Part shown: piece after piece, positions 1 to 13,205 of the stretch
How the letters are laid out: every line of letters starts with the position of its first letter
How positions within the stretch are numbered: position 1 is the stretch's first letter
From: a virus
Strand: one strand, 5' to 3'
DNA length: 23,206 bases
IMG/VR virus record: IMGVR_UViG_3300017751_003482
Location: 1 to 23,206 of that record
The notes under the pieces: generated by a model
Told to the model about the DNA's origin: nothing
Database searches by the model: none
What the model saw: only the letters and a program-made list of their open reading frames with translations
Made by a program: the position numbers and the translations under genes

Positions 1-1044
1 ATCATAGACATAGACTGCACCAGCATTTGACCCTTTGTCGTCATCTTGACCCGCACCAACAAAGATCTTGTCATCAGTAGCAGCGACCGACTGTCCAAAC
101 ACATGATAGTCTATAGGATCAAATGCTGTCAACTTAGTTGGTTGAGCAGAAAGGTCATTGGCATCATAGACATAGACTGAACCAGAATTAGTTGCGTTGT
201 CGTCATCTTGATGCGCGCCAACAATGATCTTATCAGCAGAAGTAGCAACTGAATATCCGAAAGTATCGTCCGCAGCACCATCAAACGCTGTCAACTTAGT
301 TGGTTGAGCAGATAGGTCATTGGCGTCATAGACATAGACTGAACCAGAACTAGACCCTCTGTCGTCGTCAGCATGCGCGGCGACAACGATCTTATCGGCA
401 GCAGTAGAAATCCTAAATCCGAAGAAATCGGCCGCGGCACCATCAAATGCAGTTAGTTTAGTCGGTTGAGCAGAAAGGTCATTGGCGTCATAGACGTAAA
501 TTGCACCGGAGTTAGACTCGTCACCATATGCACCAACAATGACCTTATCGGCAGCAACAGCAACTGATGAACCGAAGAAATCGGCCGCAGCACCATCAAA
601 CGCAGTTAACTCAGTTGGCGTAGCAGACAGATCGTTTAAGTCATAGACATAAACTGAACCAGAGTTGTTTCCATCTTGATCAGTAGCTGATGCTCCAACA
701 AAGATCTTGTCGCTAGTAGTTGCAACTGAGGCGCCAAAAGCATCACCCGCAGCACCATCAAACGCTGTTAATTTAGTCGGTTGAGCAGATAGATCGTTTG
801 CGTCATAAACATAAACTGATCCAGAGTTTGTACCATTGTCGTTGTCACCATATGCGCCAACGATAATCTTGTCAGCGGAAAAAGTAACAGAAGATCCGAA
901 CTGCTGACCATCCACAACACCATCAAATGCAGTTAGTTTCGTTGGTTGAGCAGAAAGATCGTTTGCGTCATAGACATAGACTGAACCAGAGTTGTTTCCA
1001 TTGTCGTCGTCATAAATTGCACCAACTACTACATAACTCGTACC
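1..1044 (-). repeat. FG-GAP beta-propeller D, highly homogeneous tandem repeat (cut by window edge)
   Basis: Seven SVYVYD motifs occur, the last one at the window edge. At DNA level the unit is about 162 bases: the gtcatagac-type landmark recurs near 1, 163, 325, 487, 640, 802 and 967. Copies are very alike, including LSAQPTKLTAFDGA and Asp-rich loops such as DNDNGTNSG. The homogeneity relative to A and B suggests recent duplication or gene conversion. Confidence 0.85.
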
Positions 1045-4000
1045 AGATTTAACCTCTTCGAACGACCAAGTGACCGCATCACCTTCCGGATCAGTAGCAG
1101 CAGCAGTAATGACAGTATCCTGACCTTGAGTCAGTGTATATGCTGCATCGACGTTAGAAACGACTGGAGCGAAGTTATGCGCTCTTGCGTCTGCTGTATC
1201 ATACATTGCAAGAGAAGATCCCAAGAATGCACGATCAGTTGGATTAGACTGGTGAATTGTATTCACCAGATTACCGCTCATGTCGTATACGCGGAGTTCG
1301 CCAGAAGCAGACTCTGATACGGTCTTACCGTAGTCGCCGACAACGATTCTGTTATTTGCAACAGAGATGCAAGTGTTTCCGGTAGATGCGATCTTTTGCA
1401 TATTCGATCCATCAAGGTCGAAGATGTAGAAGTGCTCCCCGCGATTTGCACCGACAACAACCTTTTCGTGTCCAATTGCGAGACCAGTACCGAAAGCACC
1501 GTCGTCATAGGATGTTGCTGCTGGATCATAAAGTCTTATTTCGTTAGAACCATCGAGGTCATAAAGATAAACAGATCCTGAGAAACTGTTAATAGATGGT
1601 CCGTCAGCAATAAATGCAGTAACTGCAATTTTTCCGTTACCAATAGCAATCTCATAATCACCGAATTGATCGCTCACGGTCTGACCTTCTGTAGCAGAAA
1701 TTGTATTTATGAACGTTCCCTGCATGTCGTAGATATAAACCTGACCTGAATCTGTAATGCCGTCGGCATCTGCCGTTGGAGCACCGACTACGATTCTTCC
1801 ATGACCCGCAGCAACTTTCCAACCGAATTTAGTCCAACCGTTTTGGTTTCCTGCTCCTGGTAATCCAGCAGCAGGTTCAGTAACTTTAATTTCGTTTGAA
1901 CCATCCAAGTCGTAGATGTAGAATGCTCCTACAGTAGAAGCACCTTCATAAGTACCGACGATGATCTTTCCATCGCTGATTGCAACTGATGTACCGTATA
2001 GGTTACTAGGTGCTGGAGGAGTTATCTCGATTGGTTCGTTTGTAGTTGCGAGATCGTATACGAAGACTCTCTGTTCAGTTCGTTGACCAACAACGAGAGT
2101 TGTACCGTCGATTGCCATGTTTTCGTCAGCACCGAACTGAGAATTATTATCCATACCTGCTGGGATGAACAATTCTTTTTCGTTTGATCCGTCAAGGTCA
2201 AACGCATACAACTTGTTCGAGTAGTTGTTATTTGATGCTGCTGCGATGATTCTTCCAACAGAAGTATCATTAACAACTGGTACTGGAATCTCGTAATCGA
2301 ACGTTGGTGTGACCGAAGTCGCATTACCTTCGCTGTCAGTCGCTGTAATACGCAACTGGAAGTTTGAGTCAGTAGTTCCTGGTGTTACTGTAAACACGTT
2401 ATCAGACTGTGATACTGTTACACCGTTGAGTGCAGATTCAGGAGCATATCCAGCAATCGTATTACCAAAGTAAGCATTCGGTCCCTGACCAATTAGTTTT
2501 GTCGGTTGAGCAGAAAGATCGCTTCTGTCATAGACATAGACTGAACCAGAGCCAGATCCTCCATCGTCATCAGTGTAACTACCGATCAAGATATTTGAAT
2601 CAGTTGCATAAACTGAATATCCAAAACTATCGTTCGCAGCACCATCAAACGCTGTCAACTTAGTTGGCGTTGCAGAGAGATCTGACATGTCATAAACATA
2701 TGCTGCTCCAATACTACTATTTTCACCCTGATCACCAACTACCAATATATCGTCGTCTGCGTATGCGTCAAGACCGAAAGTACTGTTCTCTTCGTGTCCC
2801 ATTACGATTACTGGTGCTTGATCAAGGTTGTTTCTATCATGGACGAATACGGCACCTTTACGAACTCCATTGCCGTCTTTGTATCGATAAGCACCAACAA
2901 TGATCTTGTCGCTGGTCAACATCAATTCGCGATCTCCAGTCTCAGTATTATCTTGATATCCTATATTGGAGACAACGGTCGGTGCCGCCGAAAGGTCGCT
3001 GACATCGTAAACATACAACCTTCCAACGTTTTGTGCTCCGAGTCCGTTATCATAATGTGTTGCTGAAACAACAAGACTTTGATTGTCTAATGCAACTACT
3101 GACCCGAATCGATCACCGCCATCGCCCAAGAACTCGCCTCCCGTCTGAGAGAGTTCAGTAGGAGATGCAGATAGATCGCTCAGAGAGTAAACATATACAA
3201 CACCATTACTATCTGGACCACCCGATGATTGTCCAACGAACAGATGAGTATCGTTTATAGCAAGACCTTCTTTACCAAAGTCACTACTCCCTTCAGGAGA
3301 AGTCAACTTAGTTGGAGCAACACTCAGATCAGATTGATCATAAACATATACTTTCCCATTCCAGGTTGATACCGCCATGTGAGAAGGAGTTACTGAAATT
3401 TCTTGACCGAACCTATCTCCGCTAGCAACATCAGATGGGTATATCTCAGTAGGAGATGAACTTAGATCTCCATTCTCATATACGAACACCGAACCTGAAT
3501 AGTTATTCTTGAGGAAGCTTCCTATCACAATCTGACTACTTCCTGCAGACGCTACTCCCTCAAACGACCAAGTGATCGCATCGCCTTCTGGATCAGTTCC
3601 GACTGCAGTAATTACAGTATCCTGACCTTGAGTCAGTTCATATGTCGAGTCAACGCCAGCGATTACTGGTGGTTGATTAACATATATGATGTTAGTTGTT
3701 ACAGTTGTTGTGTTGCCTTCCGAGTCAGTTGCTGTAATGCGCAAGTGAACGTCTGCGTCCTTAGATCCTGGTGTTACTGTAAACACGTTATCAGATTGTG
3801 TTACAGTAGTACCATCTGTTCTCAACGGAGCAGTATTTGCTGAAACTTTACTTCCAAACCTATCTTGATATACAGCATCGAATGCTGTTAACTTGGTTGG
3901 TGCTGCGGATAGATCATTTATATCGTAAATGAACGTAGAACCCGCTTGATTAGTGTCGTAAAGTGCACCGATGATAACATGATCGTCAGTTATCGCAACA

Positions 4001-5538
4001 TCTGATCCGAAGAATTCGAATTCGGTATCACCGTCATCTCCGACGAGTAATTGAGTTGCTTGAGCAGAAAGATCGTTTAGATCATAGACATAAGCAGCGC
4101 CTTGATATACCAATCCATCAATTGTTTTCCGATGAGAAGTGATTACAACTTTGTCATCATTTGCTGAAATGAATTCCCCGAAATTATCTTGACCGTGACC
4201 AGAAGGCGGAGTGGATCCATCAAACGCTGTTAGTTTCGTTGGGTCGGCAGAAAGGTCGCTTAGGTCGTAAACATAAACTGCACCAGTACCGGTACCTAGA
4301 TCGTCGTCGCCTATGGCACCAACAAATAATTTACTACTTGTCAACTCAACGTCGTTACCGAAGTAATCGTATGTACTGAGGTTTGATGGACCGATTTCAG
4401 TTGGATCAGCAGAAAGATTATTTATATCGTAAAGGTATACTATGCCTCCGTCCACGATATTCTGTCCAGCATCGTTTGTTACATCTTTCTTAGGAACACC
4501 GACAGCAAGATAACTTTCGTTCAGAGACATGTAAACCCCGAACGTGTGTTGATTACCGCGCGGATCTTCGAGTATCTTAATTGGATCAGCAGACAAATCA
4601 TTCAAGTCATAGACATATATGGCACCCGTGTACCCATTTGACGTACTAACGTACCCATCCCTTGCACCAATCACAAGTTTATTGCTATTGGTAGCGATAC
4701 TGCTTCCGAAAAAACTTCTCTCAATTTGATCAGGAGGAACTAGTTTGAATGGTTGAGCGGAAAGATCACTAGTGTCATAAACATAAACTGCGCCGCCATA
4801 GGTCAGACCGGAGTCAGTTTTGTCGCCAAATGCGCCAATGAAAATTCTTTCAGGAGTAACTAAAACTGCTCTGCCGAAACCATCGGACGCAGCACCATCA
4901 TACGCTGTCAACTTAGTTGGCGCTGCAGATAAATTGTTTGCGTTATAGACGTAAACTGAACCAGAGTCAGATCCATCGTCGTCATCGCTCGGAGAAGATA
5001 CAACCACATAACCGCCGCTTTTAATTTCCTCGAACGACCAAGTGATCGCATCACCTTCAGGATCAGTTCCGACTGCAGTAATTACAGTATCCTGACCATA
5101 CGTCAGGTTGTAAGTAGGTTGGATTCCAGAAACGAATGGTGGGAAGTTGATCATCAATTCTGGTTGGAATGATATTGTATCAATTACATAATCATCCTTT
5201 CCGTACCAACCAGTGTGGAATTTAAGGTCTGGATTGTAGTCTGCTGCGGTAGGTCGCATTGATACTGAATCGATTGCATAACCATCGACCTTACCGTTCC
5301 ATCCAGTGTGGTATTTTAGATCTGGATTATACACGGCGTCCGTTGGTTGTAACGATATTGAATCGATTACATAATCGTCGCCCTTACCGTACCATCCAGT
5401 GTGGTATTTTAAATCTTCGTTATAATCTGCAGAAACTGGTCTGAAGGAAGTTGTAACGACTACGACTCCCTCTATCTCTGCTTCAAACCAGCTTTGCTTA
5501 CTTCCTGCTAATGCCGACGTTAGGTGTCTAAAACGCAT
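1..5538 (-). CDS. Giant adhesin-like protein, FG-GAP propellers nested in Ig-like domains (3' end outside window)
   Basis: The frame is open for 1846 codons from ATG at 5538 to the window edge, so the C-terminus is missing. GGGAG lies about nine bases upstream of the ATG. Order: N-terminal stretch without an evident signal peptide (1-33), three 31-residue repeats (34-125), Ig/cadherin-like half domain, seven-unit FG-GAP propeller, second half of that domain, a second Ig-like domain with its own inserted propeller, a third propeller of a different sequence type (YDLDGSNE blades), then a third Ig-like half opening into a fourth propeller. Typical blade motifs are FGSSV, IIVGA, an Asp/Asn-rich loop such as DDDNGNNSG, and SVYVYD. 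FG-GAP propellers are known from integrin alpha chains and bacterial surface proteins, where the Asp-rich loops may bind calcium. Position after gp15 and a fibre-like gene suggests a virion appendage or adhesin. That role is inferred; the domain reading is direct. Confidence 0.85.
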   Translation of the reverse strand, partial: MRFRHLTSALAGSKQSWFEAEIEGVVVVTTSFRPVSADYNEDLKYHTGWYGKGDDYVIDSISLQPTDAVYNPDLKYHTGWNGKVDGYAIDSVSMRPTAADYNPDLKFHTGWYGKDDYVIDTISFQPELMINFPPFVSGIQPTYNLTYGQDTVITAVGTDPEGDAITWSFEEIKSGGYVVVSSPSDDDDGSDSGSVYVYNANNLSAAPTKLTAYDGAASDGFGRAVLVTPERIFIGAFGDKTDSGLTYGGAVYVYDTSDLSAQPFKLVPPDQIERSFFGSSIATNSNKLVIGARDGYVSTSNGYTGAIYVYDLNDLSADPIKILEDPRGNQHTFGVYMSLNESYLAVGVPKKDVTNDAGQNIVDGGIVYLYDINNLSADPTEIGPSNLSTYDYFGNDVELTSSKLFVGAIGDDDLGTGTGAVYVYDLSDLSADPTKLTAFDGSTPPSGHGQDNFGEFISANDDKVVITSHRKTIDGLVYQGAAYVYDLNDLSAQATQLLVGDDGDTEFEFFGSDVAITDDHVIIGALYDTNQAGSTFIYDINDLSAAPTKLTAFDAVYQDRFGSKVSANTAPLRTDGTTVTQSDNVFTVTPGSKDADVHLRITATDSEGNTTTVTTNIIYVNQPPVIAGVDSTYELTQGQDTVITAVGTDPEGDAITWSFEGVASAGSSQIVIGSFLKNNYSGSVFVYENGDLSSSPTEIYPSDVASGDRFGQEISVTPSHMAVSTWNGKVYVYDQSDLSVAPTKLTSPEGSSDFGKEGLAINDTHLFVGQSSGGPDSNGVVYVYSLSDLSASPTELSQTGGEFLGDGGDRFGSVVALDNQSLVVSATHYDNGLGAQNVGRLYVYDVSDLSAAPTVVSNIGYQDNTETGDRELMLTSDKIIVGAYRYKDGNGVRKGAVFVHDRNNLDQAPVIVMGHEENSTFGLDAYADDDILVVGDQGENSSIGAAYVYDMSDLSATPTKLTAFDGAANDSFGYSVYATDSNILIGSYTDDDGGSGSGSVYVYDRSDLSAQPTKLIGQGPNAYFGNTIAGYAPESALNGVTVSQSDNVFTVTPGTTDSNFQLRITATDSEGNATSVTPTFDYEIPVPVVNDTSVGRIIAAASNNNYSNKLYAFDLDGSNEKELFIPAGMDNNSQFGADENMAIDGTTLVVGQRTEQRVFVYDLATTNEPIEITPPAPSNLYGTSVAISDGKIIVGTYEGASTVGAFYIYDLDGSNEIKVTEPAAGLPGAGNQNGWTKFGWKVAAGHGRIVVGAPTADADGITDSGQVYIYDMQGTFINTISATEGQTVSDQFGDYEIAIGNGKIAVTAFIADGPSINSFSGSVYLYDLDGSNEIRLYDPAATSYDDGAFGTGLAIGHEKVVVGANRGEHFYIFDLDGSNMQKIASTGNTCISVANNRIVVGDYGKTVSESASGELRVYDMSGNLVNTIHQSNPTDRAFLGSSLAMYDTADARAHNFAPVVSNVDAAYTLTQGQDTVITAAATDPEGDAVTWSFEEVKSGTSYVVVGAIYDDDNGNNSGSVYVYDANDLSAQPTKLTAFDGVVDGQQFGSSVTFSADKIIVGAYGDNDNGTNSGSVYVYDANDLSAQPTKLTAFDGAAGDAFGASVATTSDKIFVGASATDQDGNNSGSVYVYDLNDLSATPTELTAFDGAAADFFGSSVAVAADKVIVGAYGDESNSGAIYVYDANDLSAQPTKLTAFDGAAADFFGFRISTAADKIVVAAHADDDRGSSSGSVYVYDANDLSAQPTKLTAFDGAADDTFGYSVATSADKIIVGAHQDDDNATNSGSVYVYDANDLSAQPTKLTAFDPIDYHVFGQSVAATDDKIFVGAGQDDDKGSNAGAVYVYD
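1045..1173 (-). other. Ig/cadherin-like domain 3, first half only in the window
   Basis: The text runs FAPVVSNVD, LTQGQDTVITAA, DPEGDAVTWSFEE and passes straight into propeller D. The second half (VSQSDNVFTVTPG-like) is not in the window and is expected just beyond the left edge. Confidence 0.65.
1174..2286 (-). repeat. Beta-propeller C, divergent FG-GAP type with YDLDGSNE blades
   Basis: Seven strand motifs are present: LYAFDLDGSN, VFVYDLATTN, FYIYDLDGSN, VYIYDMQGT, VYLYDLDGSN, FYIFDLDGSN and LRVYDMSGN. They alternate with KIIVG, RIVVGAP and KVVVGA strands. Unlike A, B and probably D, this propeller lies between complete neighbours (after Ig domain 2 and before Ig domain 3) instead of inside one. 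The blade text belongs to a different subfamily, suggesting a separate origin. Confidence 0.75.
2287..3672 (-). other. Ig/cadherin-like domain 2, split by propeller B
   Basis: The first half (3547-3672) reads PPVIAGVD, LTQGQDTVITAV, DPEGDAITWSFEG. The second half (2287-2451) resumes at YAPESALNGVTVSQSDN and continues FTVTPGTTD to ATDSEGNATS. The resumption text aligns with YAVTAGDLSGTTVSQSDN in the uninterrupted copy at the right edge, placing the insertion point directly after the TWSF strand. Confidence 0.78.
2452..3546 (-). repeat. FG-GAP beta-propeller B (seven blade motifs)
   Basis: Seven strand motifs can be counted: FVYENGD, YVYDQSD, YVYSLSD, YVYDVSD, FVHDRNN, YVYDMSD and YVYDRSD. It opens in mid-blade at SSQIVIGSF and closes with YFGNTIAG, the complementary half blade. 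Blade sequences have diverged more than in propeller D, and the Asp-rich loop is weak in blades 1 to 3. Confidence 0.8.
3679..5136 (-). other. Ig/cadherin-like domain 1, split by propeller A
   Basis: The first half (about 5017-5136) contains YGQDTVITAVGTDPEGD and ends at TWSFEE. The second half (about 3679-3840) resumes with TDGTTVTQSDNVFTVTPG and ends with ITATDSEGN. Joined, the halves match the uninterrupted domain encoded at 22910-23180, where TWSYAVTAGDLSG runs straight into TTVSQSDN. The reading is direct; the fold assignment comes from cadherin/Ig-like repeats with DPEGD and ATD-x-x-GN signatures. Confidence 0.75.
3841..5016 (-). repeat. FG-GAP beta-propeller A (seven blade motifs)
   Basis: Seven VYVYD-type strands can be counted: YVYNANN, YVYDTSD, YVYDLND, YLYDINN, YVYDLSD, YVYDLND and FIYDIND, most followed by LSA-x-PTKL-like text. 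The segment begins in mid-blade (YVVVSSPSDDDD) and ends with the FGSKVSA half of a blade, so its two ends would complete one blade together. It is flanked on both sides by halves of the same Ig-like domain. Confidence 0.8.
5164..5439 (-). repeat. Three tandem 31-residue repeats at the giant protein's N-terminus
   Basis: Residues 34-125 hold three copies of a unit with the core YNPDLKYHTGW followed by GK, D, Y and IDSIS. The repeats start at Pro34, Pro65 and Pro96. The period is 93 bases for the first two units; the third is one residue shorter. I do not recognise the family. The position before the first Ig-like domain suggests a stalk or an attachment segment, which is inference. Confidence 0.85.
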
Positions 5539-5607: not shown

Positions 5608-6066
5608 TTAAACTTCTACTGCTTCTCCGACGTAAGCACCGTAGATCGAAGAACCTACTTTCCAGAGGTTAATAATATGTGTGCCAGCAGTGCTAATGGT
5701 GTCAGGTGCTTCACCATTAATCCACTTTGTGGTTGGCCATGTGATAGCATGATTGTTGCTTACAATGTGAAGCGTAATGCTTTCACCAGAAACCCAACCT
5801 GCTGCATATGAATAAGTTGTTGCGCCTGACAGTGTATGAACTGCGAGGCTTCCGTTAGACGGATCGATTGAGACTGATGTCCCGTTAAGTGAGTCAACGC
5901 CTTCAACATAGTTGTCAGCAGTTACTGACCCAGAGAAAGTTGAAGGAACGAGGTCAGATACAGTAATTTTCTTAGATACGTCCTCACTAACATCAACGAT
6001 TGCTACAACGTCGTCGTTTGATGGAGTTCCTGAGAGTTGTGGAAGATCTGTAAATTTAATTGCCAT
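5608..6066 (-). CDS. Short fibre-like virion protein, 152 aa
   Basis: The start ATG at 6066 is preceded by AGGAGA at eight bases. Residues 1-40 (ITVSDL core, SGTPSNDDVVAIVDVSED) match the N-terminus of the 209-residue protein at 10159-10788, a module I associate with tail-fibre or tail-attached proteins of marine T4-like phages. The C-terminal half (HAITWPTTKWINGEAP, then INLWKVGSSIYGAYVGE) resembles a small C-terminal domain common at phage fibre tips. The middle is low-complexity Ser/Thr/Val text without a recognised motif. It is the first gene after a late-promoter-like box and is followed by the giant adhesin-like gene. Likely a trimeric short fibre or fibre adaptor; the role is inferred. 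Confidence 0.75.
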   Translation of the reverse strand: MAIKFTDLPQLSGTPSNDDVVAIVDVSEDVSKKITVSDLVPSTFSGSVTADNYVEGVDSLNGTSVSIDPSNGSLAVHTLSGATTYSYAAGWVSGESITLHIVSNNHAITWPTTKWINGEAPDTISTAGTHIINLWKVGSSIYGAYVGEAVEV

Positions 6067-8404: not shown

Positions 8405-10138
8405 TTACTGAATGGTGTATTCCTCACCAGTTTGAGAAATAAATTCAATTCCCAACTGCGAACCATATATCGTTTCAACTCCAAGATCTGGATCTGGAGC
8501 AAGACCACCACCGTCGCCTCCGGTATCAACACCAGTATCAACGCCTGTACCTGTACCTGTACCTGATCCAGGAGCAGTCTTAATAGAAACCAGACTAAAT
8601 GGACTGTCGACACCATATCGACTGAACAGGAACTTGTTCGGACCACCAACCAAACTTCCGGTGGTTGTCACGTAGTCACTGTTCCTTGATGTATCTTCAA
8701 TCATATCGTCGATAGCGTCAGCAATCATCTTCCTCTTGAGTCGTGCCGGAGAAATATTAGGTTGACTCTGCAGGTGTAATGCTGCTACACCGGCAACCTG
8801 AGGTGCTGCCTGACTGGTGCCATCAAGAACCATGATCTTATAGTTAGGATCTTCCGGATACGACAGAGTAGAACGACTCGAAGCAACTGTGTTACTTGCC
8901 GCACTCATAATGTTAGTACCTGCTGCCCACATATTAACTGCAGGACCACGGTTACTATTTTGTGCCGCGCCATCTGTAGAAGAACCAGAAACACGAGGTT
9001 CGTTGGAAATGTTACCGACAAAGAACGCATCTTCATGGTATGGAGATGCTGGGCGGTGATAGTAATAAGTGTTGCTGTTGATTAAAACAGAGTTATTATA
9101 ATCGTCGCCGCCAGGAACATCTGCTTTGTAGTATCCGTTACCTGCAGAAATACAGACGTGAATACCAGCATCGATCATTTCCTCGATCTCTACATCATAC
9201 GCAGTTATCTGAGCAGGAATAGAACGATTTCCGTTGCTGAACTTACTGACGATACCAAACTGAGAGTAAAGCGTAGAATCTGACTGACCACTATAGTCCC
9301 AAGAAGATCCACGATAAACACCAGAAGTAGGATTCAATGAAGTTGCGTGACGAACACCCCAACTCATATTAACAATCGTTGGACGACCGTTAGTCTTAGC
9401 ATTGTGCCAGAGGCGAATCATATCGAATGCTGTTGATGGTGAAGTACCAAACGGAACACCGCCAGTGCCGCCAAGATCTACAATCTTTTGAGAATAAATG
9501 TGAGCACCTTTCGCCCACCCATAGGTCTTACCGACAGCAATCGCAGCAACGTGAGTACCGTGACCGTCAGTATCAGTGTAGTGATCTGGATGTTGTGATC
9601 CAGAAATACCGCTTTCTGTATACCAATCAATTTGTTGTAGACGCGAGTTACCGTCAGCATCTTGCCACTCAGGGTGATCCGCTTGAATACCAGTATCCTG
9701 AATAACAACATCAACACCTGCACCGTCGAGCGCGAAGACGTAATCACTCTCAAGGTTTTCGTTTACGTCTTCTTGTCCGAAGTAAATGTTAGTTCTAGCG
9801 TTTGAGCGTCTCAAACCCCAGTTAACATTCGATGCAGTTGATGCGCCTTTTCTCTTAAATCTACCACCACGCTTTGCTTTCGCGTCGAGAGTAAATTCAA
9901 TGTCTTCTCTCATATGTGGCGGTATCTCAACCGCAAGAACTCGCTCATCAGATTGAAGTTCTTGTGCTTCTTCTTCTGTGAGCATCCAGTGCGTCATACG
10001 TTTTGATCCTTCACGAGGATCAGCAATCTGTACTGCACGATTAGGAATTGGTGAATCCCCAGTTGCAGCAGCAAGTTCCGTATCAAACGCTGTTAGGTCC
10101 ACTCCTTTGTGGACAATTACTACATATTCTTTTTCCAT
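8405..10138 (-). CDS. Subtilisin-like serine protease (S8 family), virion-associated
   Basis: This 577-residue protein has all S8 catalytic elements in order: Asp148 in VVIQDTG, His193 in DGHGTHVAA, oxyanion Asn334 in ISAGNG, and Ser442 in LDGTSQAAPQVAG. Residues 1-75 (YVVIVHKG start, LTEEEAQEL, VLAVEIPP) form an N-terminal domain that recalls both I9-type propeptides and a domain of marine T4-like structural proteins. Residues 524-545 are a Gly/Thr/Asp linker, followed by a short C-terminal tail. No signal peptide is seen. It shares a unit with the 209-residue fibre-like protein and lies just before gp13, among virion genes, so a particle-borne protease is more likely than the prohead protease (gp21 type, another family). 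Its substrate is unknown: host surface protein or virion maturation are both possible. AGGGGGGG precedes the ATG. Confidence 0.9.
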   Translation of the reverse strand: MEKEYVVIVHKGVDLTAFDTELAAATGDSPIPNRAVQIADPREGSKRMTHWMLTEEEAQELQSDERVLAVEIPPHMREDIEFTLDAKAKRGGRFKRKGASTASNVNWGLRRSNARTNIYFGQEDVNENLESDYVFALDGAGVDVVIQDTGIQADHPEWQDADGNSRLQQIDWYTESGISGSQHPDHYTDTDGHGTHVAAIAVGKTYGWAKGAHIYSQKIVDLGGTGGVPFGTSPSTAFDMIRLWHNAKTNGRPTIVNMSWGVRHATSLNPTSGVYRGSSWDYSGQSDSTLYSQFGIVSKFSNGNRSIPAQITAYDVEIEEMIDAGIHVCISAGNGYYKADVPGGDDYNNSVLINSNTYYYHRPASPYHEDAFFVGNISNEPRVSGSSTDGAAQNSNRGPAVNMWAAGTNIMSAASNTVASSRSTLSYPEDPNYKIMVLDGTSQAAPQVAGVAALHLQSQPNISPARLKRKMIADAIDDMIEDTSRNSDYVTTTGSLVGGPNKFLFSRYGVDSPFSLVSIKTAPGSGTGTGTGVDTGVDTGGDGGGLAPDPDLGVETIYGSQLGIEFISQTGEEYTIQ

Positions 10139-10158: not shown

Positions 10159-10788
10159 TTAGAATTCGTAGACTAATACTGATACTGTTCCTTGCTCGAC
10201 AACGCTTCCATCGCCTTCTCTATAGACAGTTCCGAAGTCAACATAACCAGTTGAACGGTTGACAGGAACATAAACACCAGAGTGATAGTCTTGAAAAGTG
10301 ACCATTACAGCATAATCTTCAATGCTGGTAAATGCTGACGGAAATGTTAAACGAAAGTTGCCAGAACTTTGGCGGGTGGCGGTGATACCTGCAGAACCAG
10401 TCCAAGTAGGAGCATTGGTGCCGTTCAACTTTAGCATACCACCATAAGTTGGAAGTGGAACGCCGTTCGCTGTAACTGCATCAGTAGCAGTAAAGTTAAT
10501 GCTGCTTGCGCTGTTTAGATTAAATGGACCAGTACCAGTACTGACCAAAGTAGAAATAGAAAGGTCTCCGGTGAAAGAAACATCAGGGTTAAAAGTTACA
10601 TTCGCATTACCAGTTGTATTGATAGTAGCACTATCAAATACGAAAGAACCAACTTCTGATGTACCAGAAAGAAGATCGGCGACTGTAATTTGCTTCGAAG
10701 CGTCTTCGCTGACATCAGTGATCAGAATTACATCTGTATCAGATGGTGTCCCAACAAGTTGCGTTAATTCCGTGATTTTTGTTGACAT
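10159..10788 (-). CDS. Fibre-like virion protein, 209 aa
   Basis: Residues 1-42 (KITELTQLVGTPSDTDV, DVSEDASKQITVADLL) are paralogous to the N-terminus of the 152-residue protein at 5608-6066. The two proteins share nothing obvious after that. The middle (50-110) is Ser/Thr/Asn-rich beta-type text (SFTGDLSISTLVSTGTG). The C-terminal part (SGVYVPVNRSTGYVDF, SVLVYEF) looks like a small beta domain. Start at 10788 has GGGAGA seven bases upstream. The gene leads a late unit with the subtilase. It is most simply a short tail fibre or fibre base; no specific family is recognised for the C-terminal two thirds. Confidence 0.75.
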   Translation of the reverse strand: MSTKITELTQLVGTPSDTDVILITDVSEDASKQITVADLLSGTSEVGSFVFDSATINTTGNANVTFNPDVSFTGDLSISTLVSTGTGPFNLNSASSINFTATDAVTANGVPLPTYGGMLKLNGTNAPTWTGSAGITATRQSSGNFRLTFPSAFTSIEDYAVMVTFQDYHSGVYVPVNRSTGYVDFGTVYREGDGSVVEQGTVSVLVYEF

Positions 10789-10862: not shown

Positions 10863-13205
10863 TTATCCTGCTGAGACTTTGAGAGTTCCAGCACTGTTCC
10901 AAAGTTGCCCTGCGTTTAACGGATCGGCGATTGGCAAATTACTGAATATGACTGTCGCACCGCTCGCAGTAAGATCGGTCATCGTGACACCAGCACCAAA
11001 CGTCCAATCGTTTGTAGTGTCGTATGTTAGTGAACCAGCAGCAGATGTACGAATGTCGATATCGTATTGTGTAGATGCACTAGTATTTGCTCCAATTGCA
11101 ATTGTGTTCGAAGTAGTTGCGTTCGCCCCATGACCTAATGCCAGAGCACTTGCCCCCCAAGCATTCGCTTGCATTCCAACTGCGACACCATTGCTACCAT
11201 TCTTGGTCGTAGCGTTCGGTCCAATCGCTACACCGGCATCTCGCTCAACTACAGCATTATTTCCGATTGCTACACCATTATTTCCGCCCGTACTAGAACC
11301 TACTCGAGCGTCGTTTCCGACTGCAGTTCCGCTAGTTCGACCAGATTGTACCTTTGCATTTCTACCGATAGCTACGTTAAATTGACCGTTTGAGGATGCA
11401 GTTGGACCAATTACTACTTGTTGTAGTTCACTACTAGAAGCAGAAGCACCTGGACCGATAGTTACACCAGTATTCCCTGCGCTACCCAAGATGTTGTCAT
11501 CTACAATGCCTTGTACACCAGCAGAATCCAAACCACCGCCACCAGTTGGAGCAGTCGTCATAGAAGTTCCATCTGAGAACTTGAATTCTGGTGAAGTTAC
11601 TGTAGCACCAAAGACCCAATCTGAATCGATCGAGTAAATCAGTGAACCAGCAGCAGATGTACGAATGTCGATACCGAACTGATCAGTTCTATCTAACGCA
11701 CCACTAGTAGCATTCAAGATGATATTGTTGGCACCTTGATTCGCTGCACCTGCTTGTCGACCAATAGCAATCGAACGAGTGCCTTGGTTCTCATAACCAG
11801 CAGCACGACCAATGGCAACAGAGTTTGTTGCTTGTCCAGTGAAAGCAGCATCGCGACCAATGGCAACAGAACTAACTCCCTGAGATGTGTTACCTGCTTG
11901 GAAACCTACAGCAGTTGCACTATTTAATTGATCGGTCTCACCTGCTTTATAACCAACCGCAACAGTGTTGCTTGCCTGACGCGTTTTACCCGCTTCATAA
12001 CCAACAGCAACAGTTGCCGACGTAGTGGCATCATTTTCTAATTGTGCGTTCATGCCTACCGCAACAGAAAGTGAGCGTTGATGCGCAGATTGACCTGCAT
12101 TTGTACCGATCAATACAGCACCATCGCCGCCAGTGGTATTACCCGCACCGTAACCTATCGACAGAGAATTATCTACAGCAGCAGTTGCTTCTTTGCCTAT
12201 CGCGATAGCGCTTCTTGCTGTCGCCTGTGCTTCATCTCCTAATGCTACGCTATATGTTCCAGTGGCATCGGTAGAAACGCCGATTGCAGTAGAACGCGAA
12301 CCAGTCGCATCCGCGTTCGCGCCAAGCGCGACTGACTCAGTACCCGCGTTAGATGATGAGGAACCATAACCGATGGCAATAGCATAATTTTTCATATTTG
12401 TTCTACCGGCATTGTAACCCATAGCGATAGTATCAAACTGCGCGCTTGAGATATCAGTACAGGCATTTGTTCCGATAGCAATAATGTTGTGCGCCTGACC
12501 GCCACCGCCCAAAGCAGCACCACCTGCATTATCGCCGATTACAACATGACCGGATCCACCATCAATATAACGACCAGCACTAGTACCGATCGAGATACTG
12601 TTGACGCGATCCGAAATAGCATTCTTACCGATTGCAATACGGTCTGCGTTAGCACCAATCTTCATTGTATATGAATTTGGAGATTCTGCTCCGACAAGAT
12701 CCGAGTCGATCATCGCTTCGACAGCAGCAGAATCTAGACCACCGCCGGCAGCAGGTACTCTCGCCGCAACATAGTCGGAATCAACTGTTGCTGGGATATC
12801 CGCAGCAGTAATGTAGTTAGTGTCATTGGTAAATGAACTGAGCGCAGTTGGTGCATCTGTCAGTGAAGAGTATGCGAAGTCTTGTGGTGTCTGTCGCGCT
12901 TGGACATATGCTGCGTCAACTGTTGAAAGTATCTCACTATTTGCAATAGACTGCGCGGTTGCCGAGTCGATTCCTACACCGTCAAGTGTTACTCTTGCTT
13001 GCACATAATCGCTGTCTACAATTCCGATTACGTCAGCAGAATCGAATCCATTTGCACCAGCAGGAACACGTGCCGCAACATAATCAGAATCGATCAGATC
13101 AATAACAGCGGCAGAGTCGAGCGCGCCAGCAGGAACGATGCTTCGAATCTGAGTTCCTGTTACAACATTTTCAACAACATATTTTGAGTATTTGTTCGTA
13201 GACAT
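10863..13205 (-). CDS. Long tail fibre with two YadA-head-type beta-roll domains
   Basis: This 780-residue protein starts with a stalk (1-165) of repeated DSAAVIDLIDSDYVAARV-like units. Head 1 (about 189-497) has roughly nineteen repeats of the YadA-head pattern, [SN]xAIGxxA with 14-18 residue spacing (VALGANADATG, VAVGYEAGKT). A cap with GIDIRTSAAGSL follows at 511-521, then a second stalk unit LDSAGVQGIVDD. Head 2 (about 591-710) has about nine repeats and ends in the same cap, IDIRTSAAGSL. The C-terminus DPLNAGQLWNSAGTLKVSAG is common on fibre-type proteins of marine phages. YadA heads are trimeric left-handed beta-rolls used for adhesion, so a trimeric receptor-binding fibre is likely. 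The gene follows the 118-residue gene by nine bases; GTAAAGG serves as ribosome site. Confidence 0.85.
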   Translation of the reverse strand: MSTNKYSKYVVENVVTGTQIRSIVPAGALDSAAVIDLIDSDYVAARVPAGANGFDSADVIGIVDSDYVQARVTLDGVGIDSATAQSIANSEILSTVDAAYVQARQTPQDFAYSSLTDAPTALSSFTNDTNYITAADIPATVDSDYVAARVPAAGGGLDSAAVEAMIDSDLVGAESPNSYTMKIGANADRIAIGKNAISDRVNSISIGTSAGRYIDGGSGHVVIGDNAGGAALGGGGQAHNIIAIGTNACTDISSAQFDTIAMGYNAGRTNMKNYAIAIGYGSSSSNAGTESVALGANADATGSRSTAIGVSTDATGTYSVALGDEAQATARSAIAIGKEATAAVDNSLSIGYGAGNTTGGDGAVLIGTNAGQSAHQRSLSVAVGMNAQLENDATTSATVAVGYEAGKTRQASNTVAVGYKAGETDQLNSATAVGFQAGNTSQGVSSVAIGRDAAFTGQATNSVAIGRAAGYENQGTRSIAIGRQAGAANQGANNIILNATSGALDRTDQFGIDIRTSAAGSLIYSIDSDWVFGATVTSPEFKFSDGTSMTTAPTGGGGLDSAGVQGIVDDNILGSAGNTGVTIGPGASASSSELQQVVIGPTASSNGQFNVAIGRNAKVQSGRTSGTAVGNDARVGSSTGGNNGVAIGNNAVVERDAGVAIGPNATTKNGSNGVAVGMQANAWGASALALGHGANATTSNTIAIGANTSASTQYDIDIRTSAAGSLTYDTTNDWTFGAGVTMTDLTASGATVIFSNLPIADPLNAGQLWNSAGTLKVSAG
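11029..11061. repeat. 33-base direct repeat, copy 1 (fibre cap motif)
   Basis: This stretch, starting agtgaaccagcagcag, is identical to 11641-11673. It encodes the DIRTSAAGSL cap after head 2 of the YadA-type fibre. Confidence 0.85.
11641..11673. repeat. 33-base direct repeat, copy 2 (fibre cap motif)
   Basis: Identical to 11029-11061 and offset by 612 bases (204 codons, in frame). It encodes the cap after head 1. The pair brackets stalk 2 plus head 2. Confidence 0.85.

Follow-up and report, generated by a model that had tools for sequence, protein, structure and literature searches.

Several described systems resemble parts of the protein analysed here. In the evolved Dit proteins of siphophages, a CBM is inserted in the galectin domain, so that a binding domain sits in a loop of a conserved virion β-domain and projects outward (PMC9437275). 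Recent domain shuffling has been documented in phage receptor-binding proteins, with mosaic domain exchange in tail proteins (PMC10684548). Tentaclins and Hoc-like Ig proteins display presumed binding domains on an Ig-chain stalk on the phage (PMC10743442), and BapP of Pseudoalteromonas tunicata is a long adhesin that contains a propeller together with Big_9 and cadherin-like sandwiches (PMC12153261). The integrin alpha chains share with our protein the seven-bladed FG-GAP propeller and the Ig-like domains, and cyanophage structural proteins with FG-GAP repeats (S-TIM5, AEZ65754; S-MbCM6) belong to the same propeller family. Propellers nested in other folds also exist, as in the prolyl oligopeptidases. 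Neither a propeller nested in an Ig domain nor repeated Ig sockets with exchanged propellers has been described in the open-access literature that we searched.

The DNA analysed, referred to below as the window, is a complete IMG/VR record of 23,206 bases. A gene for a giant protein of 1,846 residues runs from position 5538 to position 1 on the minus strand, its 3' end being open at the contig edge. The protein comprises three split Big_9 Ig domains, with propellers A, B and D nested in them, and a bare propeller, C. The features and the evidence for each are as follows.

5152–5538, minus strand: N-terminal segment (residues 1–129); conserved start MRFRHLTSAL and about three 31-residue repeats.
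5023–5151, minus strand: N-half of Ig domain 1 (residues 130–172); joined halves match positions 2–88 of the 89 in Big_9 with 28.1 bits.
3808–5022, minus strand: propeller A with linkers, a nested, seven-bladed FG-GAP propeller (residues 173–577); FG-GAP_2 profile, seven motifs and AlphaFold2 tandem model.
3679–3807, minus strand: C-half of Ig domain 1 (residues 578–620); alignment to the uninterrupted copy and Big_9 profile.
3556–3678, minus strand: N-half of Ig domain 2 (residues 621–661); joined halves match positions 1–87 of 89 with 29.1 bits.
2419–3555, minus strand: propeller B with linkers, nested and predicted to be seven-bladed (residues 662–1040); AlphaFold2 model with 28 strands, mean pLDDT 85.8 and pTM 0.78.
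2281–2418, minus strand: C-half of Ig domain 2 (residues 1041–1086); alignment to the uninterrupted copy, Big_9 profile and AlphaFold2.
1177–2280, minus strand: bare propeller C between Ig domains 2 and 3 (residues 1087–1454); direct reading, 90% identical in contig L004.
1054–1176, minus strand: N-half of Ig domain 3 (residues 1455–1495); motif spacing, 88% identical in L004.
1–1053, minus strand: nested propeller D, cut at the contig edge (residues 1496–1846); seven motifs, 95% identity to a nested propeller of contig L005.
22907–23182, minus strand: uninterrupted Ig domain (Big_9, 25.7 bits) in another gene, P0002; an empty socket for comparison.

The first-pass annotation had placed the nested region at 2287–5136, which was nearly right, if slightly short; the corrected span is 2281–5151. 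It had not covered the third Ig domain, which is split likewise and whose propeller, with seven motifs, leaves the contig at base 1, nor had it noted that propeller C is not nested. The N-terminal segment, which contains a tandem repeat at 5161–5416, is 89% identical to that of L004, and protein WJE88002 of the virus C48C1 starts similarly. This segment probably serves as an attachment or stem region, the attachment role being inferred.

Propellers A and B had been claimed to interrupt an Ig-like domain at the same place, and an uninterrupted version had been reported at the right edge of the window. Both claims hold. The DPEGD of the DPEGD...TWSF motif lies at residues 159, 649 and 1483, and the strand that follows the insert begins with TVTQSDN at residue 578 and TVSQSDN at residue 1041. 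The gap between the Ig core motifs amounts to 407 residues in A and 380 residues in B, compared with 9 residues in the P0002 copy. Joining the halves of A and of B gives sequences that align almost gap-free with this copy; the exceptions are an indel of two residues close to the junction and small differences at the ends (57–66% identity to the first row of the alignment). Against Big_9 (PF17963), the joined halves scored 28.1 bits (A) and 29.1 bits (B), above the Pfam cutoff of 23.6 bits, and spanned the profile from position 1–2 to position 87–88; the N-half alone gave no Big_9 match at all, and the C-half alone remained under the cutoff. L004 carries three uninterrupted Ig copies with loops of 9–14 residues between nested Ig domains of the same protein, and across the family the same position measures 9–14 residues in uninterrupted copies versus 337–411 residues in split ones. 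Across six contigs, the window and five others, 22 aligned units show the same split, which is therefore not due to chance. Contig ends truncate two of these units in the N-half; unit D of the window, which is open, and the L004 unit that contains stop codons are not part of the alignment. It is thus confirmed that propellers A and B were each inserted at the same loop of one Big_9 Ig domain.

In a long array, however, the same residues would also serve a tandem arrangement, in which each C-half combines with the N-half of the following unit into a circularly permuted Ig domain between propellers. Such a permuted piece does score on Big_9, though only as two separate stretches, the better of which covers profile positions 1–38, whereas the natural order spans positions 1–88. 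Moreover, the whole of bare propeller C lies between the C-half of Ig domain 2 and the N-half of Ig domain 3. Arrays open with an N-half and close with a C-half, a lone unit exists in contig L023, and the uninterrupted copies run from N to C. The permuted Ig domain is rejected because of the profile control and propeller C, and we give the tandem arrangement hardly any credence.

Nesting of the propellers also agrees with two other checks that the first-pass annotation had proposed, a profile search and a structure prediction. When the whole giant protein was searched against Pfam, FG-GAP_2 (PF14312) matched with an E-value of 1.7e-157 over 19 stretches. Seven VYVYD-type motifs were counted in A (residues 195–536) and seven in B (residues 684–1000), as had been claimed, some of them degenerate (VYVYN, FIYD, VFVHD). 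Unit B was modelled with AlphaFold2 together with 22 homologous units. In the resulting model (mean pLDDT 85.8, pTM 0.78), Ig strands flank the propeller on both sides, and both Ig halves reach a pLDDT of mostly 80–90 despite the 376 residues between them. The 28 propeller strands follow the order B-C-D, six times A-B-C-D, and a final A. The expectation of a closed ring of seven four-stranded blades with 3+1 closure is thus met for propeller B in a predicted, not a solved, structure. The additional claim that each propeller starts mid-blade and ends with an FG half was right in kind; the model begins with B-C-D and ends with a lone A strand, a 3+1 division instead of two halves. The pairing of the Ig halves is supported by the profile match, pLDDT, pTM and the strand pattern, and not by measured three-dimensional contacts. 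A two-unit model of A and B reached a pLDDT of 80.0 and a pTM of only 0.49, and the relative placement of the two units therefore remains undetermined. In Foldseek searches, integrin alpha chains led the matches in the PDB, at only 10–15% identity, and the S-TIM5 structural protein was the best match among viral models, aligning over 390 columns with an rmsd of 2.6 and a TM-score of 0.78 (on the target). A PDB search by sequence gave no match.

Scans of viral contigs revealed the same nesting in five related IMG/VR contigs (L004, L005, L040, L023 and L042). The L005 gene, a frame of 4,241 codons, and the L004 gene, with 3,839 codons, two adjacent in-frame stops and 308 further in-frame residues, each encode seven nested units; proteins of about 4,200 residues thus contain as many as seven. 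L040 has five in at least 2,630 codons, L042 has one, and L023 has a single unit in a different repetitive protein. That protein (L023:7323-14745, at least 2,474 residues) consists mostly of short repeats of the YTRTR/FAGNYxRN type, unlike the Ig arrays. The two stops of L004 (L004:19464-19469) lie inside its last nested propeller, and whether they reflect a sequencing error, decay or real termination is unresolved. Outside IMG/VR, the complete genome of C48C1 (OQ984149, Kyanoviridae) encodes a protein of 1,480 residues whose N-terminus is similar and which contains two nested units, as read from its sequence. Its first joined Ig domain scored 20.3 bits on Big_9, below the cutoff, and the second had no match, so the Ig assignment is weaker here. 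No relatives of C48C1 were found among the viral contigs searched. In the bacterial genomes, the only finds were proteins with Ig domain and propeller in tandem, encoded on contigs that bear a MAG label, one of them equal in length to an IMG/VR contig (55,371 bases), and a Vibrio protein whose Ig match was weak. The giant protein of Sinorhizobium phage Phosso was considered as a nested case and rejected; in the part read, its FG-GAP-like array had no Ig split by eye. This protein (XYS97267.1, L056:101-11179, 3,692 residues) consists largely of tandem FG-GAP-like repeats, with an apparent glycine-rich stretch and a lectin-like stretch inside the array.

Comparison of these relatives led to what is the larger finding, absent from the first-pass annotation: the exchange of propellers between scaffolds. 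Over 253 unit pairs, the mean identity was 73% and 66% for the two Ig halves and 40% for the propellers. Unit 6 of L005 and unit 5 of L040 share 1,130 consecutive identical propeller bases, whereas their Ig halves are 58% and 60% identical. Similarly, window propeller B is 91–92% identical to that of L005 unit 7, with Ig halves at 67% and 58–60%, and window propeller D is 95% identical to that of L005 unit 1, with the N-half at 70%. The reverse is seen at the last Ig socket of L004, L005, L040 and L042, where the C-halves are 94–97% identical and the propellers 27–50% alike. Relative to L004, the closest homologue, the Ig halves of the window are 77–98% identical, bare propeller C is 90% identical, and the first, second and third nested propellers are 75%, 40% and 27% identical, respectively.

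A three-way comparison located the switch points. In L040 unit 5, flanks resembling L005 unit 7 (90–100%) surround an insert identical to that of L005 unit 6; the switches lie at ITWSFEEV on the left and at SALNGTTVAQSDNVFTVTPG on the right, within tens of bases of the junctions. Window unit B combines L004-like flanks with an insert like that of L005 unit 7, with switches at corresponding places, the right one being less sharp. Single-propeller scans gave close copies of B in L005 alone; for the cassette of L005 unit 6, close copies were confined to L005 and L040. All other matches to either were weak. On the strength of these alignments, we show that the nested propellers behave as cassettes that are exchanged among conserved Ig sockets, the breakpoints lying at the junctions. 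The tip domain of the protein appears to be exchanged as well. A laminin-G-like lectin domain (Laminin_G_3, 43.7 bits) forms the C-terminal end of the L005 protein, and a bare propeller that of the L040 protein.

Most members of the family are metagenomic, so that mosaics made by assembly are possible in principle. The gene is repetitive, collapsed repeats could have yielded chimeric contigs, the switches are located at conserved segments, and the adjacent pair of in-frame stops that interrupts the last L004 propeller would fit such an origin. At the two junctions, however, the sockets of L005 units 6 and 7 have exact stretches of no more than 20 and 16 bases in common, which is short for assembler joins without excluding them. 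Furthermore, cassette pairs differ by up to 8–9% in protein, which cannot arise from misjoined identical reads, and socket and propeller are discordant in several contig pairs. We thus regard assembly chimeras as a quite improbable source of the mosaics.

The differences between related propellers are unevenly distributed over the predicted ring. Loops were labelled by the strands that they connect, the D-A and B-C loops forming one face and the A-B and C-D loops the other. Window B and L005 unit 7 differ at 17 of 137 positions on the D-A/B-C face versus 1 of 74 on the A-B/C-D face (p = 0.004). For L005 unit 3 and L040 unit 1 the counts were 14 of 102 versus 2 of 74 (p = 0.015), and for window A and L004 unit 1 they were 57 of 166 versus 11 of 74 (p = 0.002). 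The test was devised post hoc, the D-A/B-C loops exceed the others in length and are more difficult to align, and the strand labels of the second and third pairs were transferred by alignment. Because the insert enters before strand B and exits after strand A, the Ig domain should lie near the A-B side of the ring, and from this topology we infer that the variable D-A/B-C face points away from it. The dN/dS ratios were mixed. They reached 1.06 and 0.85 in two propellers that were shared recently, against 0.22–0.30 in others; diversifying selection is therefore not established.

These low ratios in several pairs, the conservation of bare propeller C and the absence of a known ligand would also suit propellers that merely extend, thicken or decorate the fibre as structural spacers, their exchange being neutral recombination between repeats. 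Spacers would not need to branch out of the backbone, though, and the concentration of variation on one face in three pairs, together with the replacement of heads on sockets that stay conserved, speaks against them. We consider this explanation unlikely, while noting that FG-GAP propellers are also found in proteins that do not bind receptors, which counts against a role as binding heads.

The giant gene adjoins genes for a tail sheath stabilizer, head closure, a head–tail adaptor and a baseplate wedge, and its product is therefore likely a virion protein. Further genes on the minus strand encode a subtilase among the structural genes (8405–10138; Peptidase_S8, 94.8 bits) and a fibre-like protein with YadA head repeats and weak similarity to a tail spike family (10863–13205). 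Two proteins (5608–6066 and 10159–10788, minus strand) have the N-terminal motif LxQLxGTPSxxDVxxIxDVSEDxSKxITVxDL in common, which is possibly a virion attachment segment. Separately, a cupredoxin-like domain with a KCxLHxxMG-type ending occurs at or near the end of phage structural proteins, namely at the C-termini of the L004 giant protein and of C48C1 WJE88004 (L043:16455-19256), and in L050/L052. Its Pfam match is weak (Cupredoxin_1, E = 0.005, under the cutoff), and the KCxLHxxMG residues are candidate copper ligands.

Some propeller families are enzymes, and with the subtilase and YadA-head fibre genes nearby, the propellers might be depolymerases, for example glycan lyases or hydrolases. 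Over the propellers, however, the only Pfam matches above cutoff were FG-GAP_2 and one Kelch match, in a search with family profiles that did not include catalytic sites, and the propellers average only about 40% identity. An enzymatic role seems to us very improbable.

We consider it likely that the giant protein is a fibre-like virion protein in which a stalk of Big_9 Ig domains carries nested propellers as lateral, exchangeable binding heads, its function and virion location being inferred. The backbone of such a fibre would be a chain of Big_9 Ig domains. In the majority of the family's Ig domains, the loop after the TWSF strand has given way to an entire seven-bladed FG-GAP propeller. The D-A/B-C face, directed away from the stalk, would bind ligands on the host surface, probably glycans. 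Recombination in or beside the conserved Ig anchors ITWSFEE and QSDNVFTVTPG could swap heads and leave the stalk unbroken, with the result that each phage would carry two to seven interchangeable heads. Ligand binding, the glycan nature of the ligands and the adaptive value of the exchange are, like the virion location, inferences. As to the full socket-and-plug proposal, according to which Ig sockets accept whole propellers and recombination at the anchors may move them between sockets and phages to give combinatorial sets of heads per fibre, we find the grounds for and against it evenly balanced. If correct, it would explain how phages change recognition without disturbing the fibre backbone, offer a natural rule for placing large domains in Ig loops, and render recognition by uncultured marine phages testable head by head.

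Tandem arrangements also occur in more distant phages. Marine phage proteins from contigs L050, L052, L015, L022 and L028 carry a propeller, and those from L014 and L017 a LamG-like or lectin domain, C-terminal to the Ig domain (domain types assigned by eye). These Ig domains belong to the same family and have either the QSDNVFT strand or one closely similar to it, but they are intact. It is plausible that the order of Ig domain followed by binding domain is the ancestral arrangement. The S-TIM5 protein, the nearest viral fold, has 407 residues and consists of a single propeller without an Ig socket. In integrin alpha chains the propeller precedes the Ig-like thigh domain in tandem, whereas the propellers of the giant protein lie inside Ig domains. 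BapP differs by a five-bladed, N-terminal propeller in tandem with its other domains (PMC12153261), and tentaclins by a C-type lectin at one end that is varied through DGR mutation, without nested propellers (PMC10743442); no Pfam match to a C-type lectin was found in the giant protein (P0001). Evolved Dit proteins use a Dit/galectin host and a CBM guest, with one insert per protein (PMC9437275). In the giant protein the host domain is Big_9, Pfam scans revealed no Dit family, and the guests are seven-bladed propellers, up to seven per protein, exchanged socket by socket. In comparison with the shuffling documented in receptor-binding proteins (PMC10684548), the guest is swapped in the middle of a host domain and at fixed sockets. 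Virion proteins with inserted binding heads were thus already known, and so, separately, were mosaic tail fibres; what is new is that the two are combined, in a design that is repeated and branched, bears up to seven heads per protein and confines exchange to the guest domain.
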